A stretch of DNA of 64,000 nucleotides, taken from positions 1,116,001-1,180,000 of the forward strand of contig NZ_JQMV01000003.1 of the NCBI RefSeq assembly GCF_000744885.1, in the 5' to 3' direction. Source of the DNA: Thermus amyloliquefaciens (GTDB lineage: Bacteria > Deinococcota > Deinococci > Deinococcales > Thermaceae). Within the stretch, counting starts at the first letter, position 1; the number at the start of each line of letters is the position of its first letter. Below the pieces are notes generated by a model that had not been told where the DNA came from, made no database searches, and saw only the letters and a program-made list of their open reading frames with translations. Both the position numbers and the translations under genes were made by a program. Positions 1 to 587 of the stretch are shown here, in pieces.

Positions 1-407
1 CCCAAAACCACCAGTAAGGGCCCAAAGTTAGAACCCAGGCTGGCGGCGGGAAGCAGGCTGGCCCTTACCCGAAGCCAAGCATACCCTTGGGCATCCTGCA
101 CCGCATGCCCCACCTCGTGGGCCGCCACGGCCAAGGCCGCCAGGCTCGGGGAGGCGTAGTTGGCCTCGGAAAGCCGCACCGCCTTGGCGTGGGGGTCGTA
201 GTGGTCCGTGAGGGCCCCGGGCACGGGCTCCACCCGCACCTGGGTGAGGCCGTGAGCATCCAGGATGGCCCGGGCCACCTGGGCCCCCGTGAGGCCCCGG
301 CTGTTGGCCACCCGGCTAAAACGGGCAAAGGTGGCCTGCAACCCCCCTTGGATCGCCACGCTGGCCACGAACACCAGCACCATGAGCAAAATCGCCAACA
401 TCTCCAT
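1..407 (-). CDS. YugP-like membrane zinc metallopeptidase (3' end outside window)
   Basis: Partial gene; it runs off the left edge and only its first 135 codons are visible. It starts at ATG 407, with a GGAGG six bases upstream. The protein opens with one hydrophobic segment (about residues 3-20) and carries HEVGHAVQDAQGY, the HExxH zinc site of the YugP/Zn_peptidase_2 family (membrane-bound neutral zinc peptidases). A second hydrophobic stretch begins right after the zinc site, which is usual for the family. The natural substrate is not known. Upstream lie a terminator, a yybP-ykoY-type aptamer and a good promoter, so expression is probably controlled by a metal-sensing RNA. The family assignment rests on the motif and its context. 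Confidence 0.85.
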   Translation of the reverse strand, partial: MEMLAILLMVLVFVASVAIQGGLQATFARFSRVANSRGLTGAQVARAILDAHGLTQVRVEPVPGALTDHYDPHAKAVRLSEANYASPSLAALAVAAHEVGHAVQDAQGYAWLRVRASLLPAASLGSNFGPLLVVL

Positions 408-432
408 GCTCCACCTCCGCGGGCAGAGTAGC

Positions 433-554
433 AAAAACCGAGGCCACCCGTACAGGTGGTCTCGCCATGCGCCCTTAGGCGCCCCAGCCGACCGGGGAAG
501 GTTCCCGTACTGACGACCGGCTGGCCCCCTTCGGGGGCGGCTACTCCCCGCAGG
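433..554 (-). promoter_or_regulatory. yybP-ykoY-type (manganese-sensing family) riboswitch with overlapping terminator
   Basis: Read on the minus strand, the leader holds the two hallmark blocks of the yybP-ykoY aptamer: GGGGAGTAGC (549 down to 540) and GGCGAGACC (466 down to 458), with paired arms between them. The GAGACC block is also the 5' arm of a hairpin (463-440; GAGACCACC against GGTGGCCTC with one mismatch), followed by five Ts (437-433). Aptamer closure and terminator are therefore mutually exclusive, which predicts ligand-dependent antitermination. Known members sense Mn2+ and usually control transporters or exporters. Here the next gene is a metallopeptidase. The P1 helix next to the conserved blocks has several mismatches, which is the weakest part of the call. 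Confidence 0.78.
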
Positions 555-558
555 TACC

Positions 559-587
559 TTTATACCAGACGCCTGCCCCCTCAGCAA
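559..587 (-). promoter_or_regulatory. Promoter of the riboswitch-metallopeptidase transcript
   Basis: The -35 box is TTGCTG (587-582) and the -10 box is TATAAA (564-559), 17 bp apart. The expected start, near 553, places the aptamer at the very 5' end of the RNA. The insertion sequence target duplication starts at the last base of the -35 box, so the promoter survived the insertion. Confidence 0.7.

Follow-up and report, generated by a model that had tools for sequence, protein, structure and literature searches.

A probable Mn2+-class riboswitch in front of the membrane metallopeptidase gene yugP in Thermus

By the sequence and structure features which we tested, the RNA leader of yugP in Thermus amyloliquefaciens is a member of the Mn2+ riboswitch class yybP-ykoY (RF00080). 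It is quite probable that the leader operates as a riboswitch of this class and that its output is one single gene, yugP, for a putative membrane metallopeptidase. The leader is located on the minus strand near the beginning of the window, i.e., the stretch of 64,000 nucleotides that was analysed. A sequence-only reading had assigned it to this class on account of two conserved aptamer blocks; the assignment is borne out by both L1 blocks, by the L3 metal site and by helices with covariation. The L3 signature (507-513) and a second conserved helix, P0, had escaped that reading. The features, in the order of transcription, are:

559-587, minus strand: promoter with -35 box TTGCTG (582-587), 17-nt spacer and extended -10 element TGGTATAAA (559-567), by direct reading
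540-549, minus strand: L1 5' strand of the aptamer, GGGGAGUAGC (DNA GGGGAGTAGC), also the 5' strand of P0
525-537, minus strand: helix P2, CCCCC (533-537) with GGGGG (525-529), from the pair count
484-524, minus strand: helix P3 with L3; P3.1 514-524 with 484-494, P3.2 503-506 with 495-498
507-513, minus strand: L3 metal-site signature UCANNAC, here UCAGUAC, in 24 of 26 Thermus yugP leaders
469-482, minus strand: helix P4, 478-482 with 469-473, from the pair count
458-466, minus strand: L1 3' strand of the aptamer, GGCGAGACC, by direct reading
439-464, minus strand: terminator-like hairpin CGAGaCCACC/GGUGGcCUCG, overlapping the L1 3' strand, -15.5 kcal/mol
433-437, minus strand: U5, separated by one G from the hairpin; hairpin and U5 together 433-464
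417-432, minus strand: P0 3' strand (GCUACUC..CCCGCGG), the complement of the 5' end of the mRNA, abutting the Shine-Dalgarno sequence
414-418, minus strand: Shine-Dalgarno (SD) sequence GGAGG, by inspection
405-407, minus strand: yugP start codon ATG, by direct reading
1-407, minus strand: yugP (Zn_peptidase_2, MEROPS M65), 226 aa from the ATG at 405-407

The promoter had been called a good one. A -35 box TTGNNN, a 17-nt spacer and TGNTATA are found in all 26 Thermus yugP leaders, and the L1 5' strand starts directly behind them. A promoter scan with strict criteria, however, called no promoter at the leader. Single-sequence folding of the leader is unexceptional (z -1.59 and -0.06), and one terminator-like site was found where 0.4 were expected, which alone is not significant. 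On the sequences compared, the case for the leader is carried by conservation. An insertion sequence at 596-1568, upstream of the -35 box at a distance of 8 nt, has left the promoter undisturbed. It has 9-bp inverted ends (GGGCTTGCC/GGCAAGCCC), is flanked by a 9-bp target duplication (AGGCCTTGT at 587-595 and 1569-1577) and encodes a DDE_Tnp_1 transposase which is split over two frames.

The 5' block of L1 (GGGGAGUAG) is present at 540-549. All 26 Thermus leaders have GGGGAGTAG; 25 read GGGGAGTAGC and one reads GGGGAGTAGT. E. coli mntP is identical in GGGGAGTAGC, alx reads GGGGAGTAAC. The 3' block, GGCGAGACC (GNNAGACC), is present at 458-466; 24 of the 26 leaders have GGCGAGACCAC and two have variants. 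Both blocks are common to the window, alx and mntP, with small changes in alx. The surroundings of L3 can be compared in the same manner, i.e., GAUCG-UCAUUACG...CGGUC in alx and GGUCG-UCAGUACG...CGGUC in the window, alx carrying UCAUUAC in place of UCAGUAC. Among the Thermus yugP leaders 22 possess GTCAGTACG, one GTCAGGACG and one GTCAAGACG; in two L3 is lost. In the 24 leaders which keep L3 the contact letters are constant, with variation at the two positions between them (GU, GG, AG). In Lactococcus lactis the metal site comprises G9, U39, C40, A41, U44 and C45, of which A41 is invariant (PMC9190785). These contact residues appear to map onto UCANNAC, with alx as backing.

The leader RNA may, in principle, sense another signal than Mn2+, either a different divalent ion or pH. 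Such a signal would suit a target which is a zinc-type peptidase and no Mn exporter, and for E. coli alx, another member of the class, regulation by pH is known as well. Against this stand the letters of the Mn site, which are invariant around two variable ones, and the fact that these genomes use the same riboswitch class for terC. We consider a different signal very improbable.

A match of the leader to RF00080 scored 22.4 bits (E 1.3e-4), and in a scan of the whole 2.16-Mb genome the leader was the sole match (25.5 bits, E 3.8e-5). Both values are below the Rfam 15 gathering score of 45, which is a curators' cut-off and no structural feature. In this respect the leader resembles that of E. 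coli mntP (L058:1962-2058), a positive control that reached 41.6 bits; the leader of E. coli alx, also a positive control, gave no match at E<=0.01. Because a known member such as mntP also falls below it, the cut-off does not discriminate. For the same reason we rejected the argument that a score below the Rfam threshold means no riboswitch, and RF00080 probably misses many real members. The covariance-model check proposed by the sequence-only reading thus returned a sub-threshold score, yet it would have done so for mntP as well. At E<=0.1 RF00080 matches were obtained in 24 of 27 Thermus genomes, each time including the yugP leader and never above the cut-off. These uniformly sub-threshold scores count against a Mn switch, as does a minimal P1.1. 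In the yugP leader P1.1, described as the switch helix in L. lactis, is limited to GG/CC with mismatches beyond (read by eye).

Of the four-helix aptamer, P2, P3 and P4 are present, and both-side changes occur in P2 and P3 among 24 leaders, i.e., 23 of the 26 from Thermus plus one from a sister genus (G071). When 41 pairs were tested on these leaders, 97.8% of the cells were paired; as the leaders compared are relatives and one of them supplied the structure, this is support and not proof. Six pairs changed on both sides compared to 1.2 in shuffles, none of 500 shuffles came as high, and slid versions of the pair set dropped to 34-51% paired. Left out of the count were the two leaders without L3 (L032, L046) and one which looked the same as another (L049 and L048, respectively). 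MAFFT alignments of the leaders misplace P3.

All but one of 27 Thermus genomes contain PF04298, the exception (G020) being a genome of 65% completeness. All 26 yugP genes are preceded by the riboswitch leader, so that the comparison across Thermus genomes suggested by the sequence-only reading came out in its favor. L3 is intact in 24 of these leaders and lost in G018 (L032) and G025 (L046). A strict motif, GGGGAGTARC-N(10-40)-TCANNACG, was searched with the reversed pattern as a control. It occurs at 50 sites in 26 of the 27 Thermus genomes, the reversed pattern at none. According to the coordinates 24 sites are directly before yugP and 26 directly before a TerC gene. The second site of T. 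amyloliquefaciens itself (G000:C3:549919-549954, locus L061) is upstream of a YkoY-type TerC, which matches TIGR03716 and PF03741. That terC in the same genome carries the same switch class goes beyond what had been read from the window. Judged by these sites the Mn regulon of Thermus seems to consist of two genes, the exporter terC and the protease yugP.

Both species without L3 in the yugP leader retain the terC switch: in G018 the terC leader is intact, with TCAGGACA, and in G025 the terC site is kept. The loss of L3 in two species indicates that riboswitch control of yugP is dispensable. In both yugP leaders the L1 blocks are nearly intact; they are possible natural sensor knock-outs. Directly after terC the genome of T. 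amyloliquefaciens has a membrane gene resembling DedA/SNARE-associated proteins (by eye; L061:171-713), which also occurs in L025; possibly it is part of the same Mn-controlled transcript. The score below the Rfam gathering value and the two losses of L3 among 26 species are what one might expect from a degenerate, non-functional leader or from chance resemblance. Conservation joined with covariation, the lack of any hit by the reversed pattern in the Thermus genomes and a further occurrence in another family (G100, below) speak so clearly for a functional member that we give this explanation hardly any credence.

The L1 3' strand is common to aptamer and hairpin and cannot serve both at once. 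Reuse of the second aptamer block in a terminator had been claimed, and the overlap of 458-466 with 439-464 agrees with this. Mutually exclusive use of the L1 3' strand is the classical ON logic in L. lactis (PMC9190785). The GC-rich hairpin and the U-run at 433-464 are the features of an intrinsic terminator, and at least four T follow the hairpin in 21 of the 26 Thermus yugP leaders. In the other five the U-tract is poor; the claim of a terminator thus holds for the hairpin and U5 of the window and less well for these leaders. The leader of G071 has no U-run, and its hairpin displays compensatory changes. Because of the poor U-tracts in five leaders and in G071, termination may not be the whole output.

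The proposed switch would operate as follows. At low Mn2+ the L1 3' strand would fold into the hairpin and RNA polymerase would stop at the U-tract. Mn2+ would dock L1 onto L3, the L1 3' strand would be held, and transcription would read through into yugP. The predicted outcome is that the protease YugP and TerC rise together with Mn2+. The likely purpose would be to clear mismetalated or jammed membrane proteins, or metal importers, when manganese is in excess. Altogether, the observation from which we started is confirmed, and the interpretation given to it is partly supported.

Helix P0 pairs the 5' GGGGAGUAGC with GCUACUCCCC beside the SD sequence and so ties the 5' terminus of the mRNA to the SD flank; GCUACUC (426-432, minus strand) is located between U5 and the SD sequence. 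The duplex is present in all 26 Thermus yugP leaders with -16.5 to -28.8 kcal/mol, mean -23.6; shuffling of the 3' segments gives a mean of -12.3 (sd 2.8). When partners were swapped among 21 distinct leaders the observed mean was reached in 22 of 20000 permutations, the leaders being related. The terC leaders have the aptamer signatures, the hairpin with the L1 3' strand, a U-rich tract and an SD sequence in common with those of yugP. They differ by the YkoY-type TerC target, by the lack of the long P2 hairpin and by the lack of P0, which was absent in all 14 examined (mean -8.0 kcal/mol).

The 3' strand of P0 lies beyond the U-tract, therefore P0 can act only on read-through RNA. There it would constitute a second layer, either 5'-end protection or control of the ribosome site, with either sign. 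A simple SD mask which is freed by Mn2+ is unsupported by constrained folding of the 26 leaders. With the aptamer strands held unpaired, a crude proxy for the Mn2+-bound state in which the transcription start is assumed, SD openness went from 0.53 to 0.37 at 37 °C and from 0.62 to 0.45 at 70 °C. The SD sequence was more open in only five of 26 leaders at 37 °C and three of 26 at 70 °C. The reduced openness argues against simple translational activation. P0 may serve in 5'-end protection, in steric hindrance beside the SD sequence, or in release of the SD sequence from a local hairpin.

One may go further and propose that the aptamer binds Mn2+, that the main output is control of translation or mRNA decay by P0 and the SD flank, and that the hairpin is just an alternative fold. 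P0 is present in 26 of 26 leaders, while the U-tract is weak in five and absent in G071. P0 is restricted to the yugP leaders as compared to the terC leaders examined, and the isolated 3' part of the G071 leader folds with the SD region paired. Such a proposal is at odds with the 21 of 26 leaders which carry at least four T behind the hairpin, and with an SD accessibility which does not increase when the aptamer strands are held. We deem it unlikely, and prefer the Mn2+ riboswitch in which the hairpin takes part in the output.

The gene itself extends past the start of the window to L056:7727 and has 226 codons in the genome stretch L056. That the target is a zinc metallopeptidase had been proposed beforehand; YugP matches PF04298 with 275.9 bits (cut-off 27), and its leader is kept across Thermus. 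MEROPS places YugP in family M65 (PMC3890501). The HExxH motif is present as AAHEVGHA, and an alignment of 17 homologues shows no change in its H, E and H; HEVGH and VEFD are the conserved motifs. By family assignment YugP is a putative membrane peptidase. The predicted structure has a pLDDT of 93.2. A Foldseek search of the model against the PDB gave no match at E<=0.001; it has middling Z scores to the zincins ArdC, IrrE/PprI and BlaR1, which are intermixed with unrelated rows. Inspection of the ORF lists of the Thermus loci disclosed no convincing gene of the same direction immediately behind yugP. A role of yugP as the first gene of an operon was rejected; the few same-strand candidates look like noise.

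For the phylum the motif search was preferred because an RF00080 scan with stricter filters, which matched 23 of 111 genomes, lost the match in the genome of T. amyloliquefaciens itself. Across the 111 genomes the strict motif was counted 88 times, in 57 genomes, and its reversed control four times; PF04298 occurs in 103 of the 111. Of 38 motif sites outside of Thermus 35 were read. Most of these are upstream of TerC-like ORFs (by eye, in part profiled), and three (L091, L138, L144) resemble chance matches. In one genus the motif or an RF00080 match precedes ORFs of the Na/Ca-exchanger type (L148, L149, L239), another less usual target; PF01699 was confirmed for L148 only. Two sites outside of Thermus are upstream of yugP, one in the sister genus (G071, L135) and one in another family (G100, L151). 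In G100 (L151:492-632) riboswitch and yugP are separated by a small ORF with several Cys, about 40 codons long, whose SD sequence might base-pair with the last part of the aptamer (by eye). Among 80 YugP loci from across the bacteria, searched over 700 nt upstream (one locus had less than 200 nt), the motif was present in one, that of Thermus tenuipuniceus. We conclude that the association of riboswitch and yugP is rare and mainly a trait of Thermus.

The leaders of E. coli alx and mntP, L. lactis yoaB and B. subtilis meeY (ykoY) share with the yugP leader the L1 blocks, the L3 signature UCANNAC between P3.1 and P3.2, the helices P2, P3 and P4, and the overlap of the L1 3' strand with a hairpin. 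Differences to the known members are the membrane peptidase as a target in Thermus, a transcript which seems to begin at the aptamer and thereby leaves P1.1 minimal, and the extra helix P0, by which 5' end and SD flank are joined. No published report of a Mn riboswitch before yugP was found in literature which mostly did not cover subscription papers; the supplements of PMC3766115, a regulon survey that covers Deinococcus-Thermus, may hold one.

For B. subtilis a connection between manganese and membrane proteolysis has been described. Under Mn excess YqgP and FtsH act on MgtE (PMC7231995), i.e., a membrane protease serves metal homeostasis in Mn stress as we envisage it for YugP. In that case, however, protease activity is controlled via a Mn/Zn-sensing domain, and YqgP is a rhomboid, not a member of M65 (PMC7231995). 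The riboswitch-controlled TerC protein MeeY functions in metalation during secretion, together with the secretosome; proteins of secretion and quality control, including FtsH and HtpX, co-purify with MeeF and MeeY, and FtsH becomes essential once MeeF and MeeY are both missing (PMC10550928). Co-induction of a protease and a YkoY-type TerC by Mn2+ would fit this picture by analogy. B. subtilis YugP, of the same family by name, is presented as a putative metalloprotease of the spore inner membrane which, together with htrC, has a mild effect on germination, in a paper whose text, as available, nowhere names manganese (PMC13393411).

Against this background we tentatively suggest, as one possibility and with less than even confidence, that YugP is a quality-control protease for Mn stress beside TerC and that the yugP leader is a switch of two layers, aptamer and P0 clamp. 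As part of this joint proposal the mRNA 5' end would first be an aptamer strand and then, by the ribosome site, form the P0 clamp.

A well-studied class of metal riboswitches hereby reaches beyond exporters to a protease, and YugP (M65), an uncharacterised family, gains a physiological setting which can be tested. As real members, E. coli mntP among them, fall below the Rfam cut-off, further hidden targets are possible. In B. subtilis the links among TerC, FtsH and YqgP already connect the handling of Mn with the quality control of membrane proteins; the Thermus genome seems to wire an exporter and a protease to one class of Mn2+ sensor. The conserved leaders suggest that Thermus cells raise the clean-up of membrane proteins as manganese increases.
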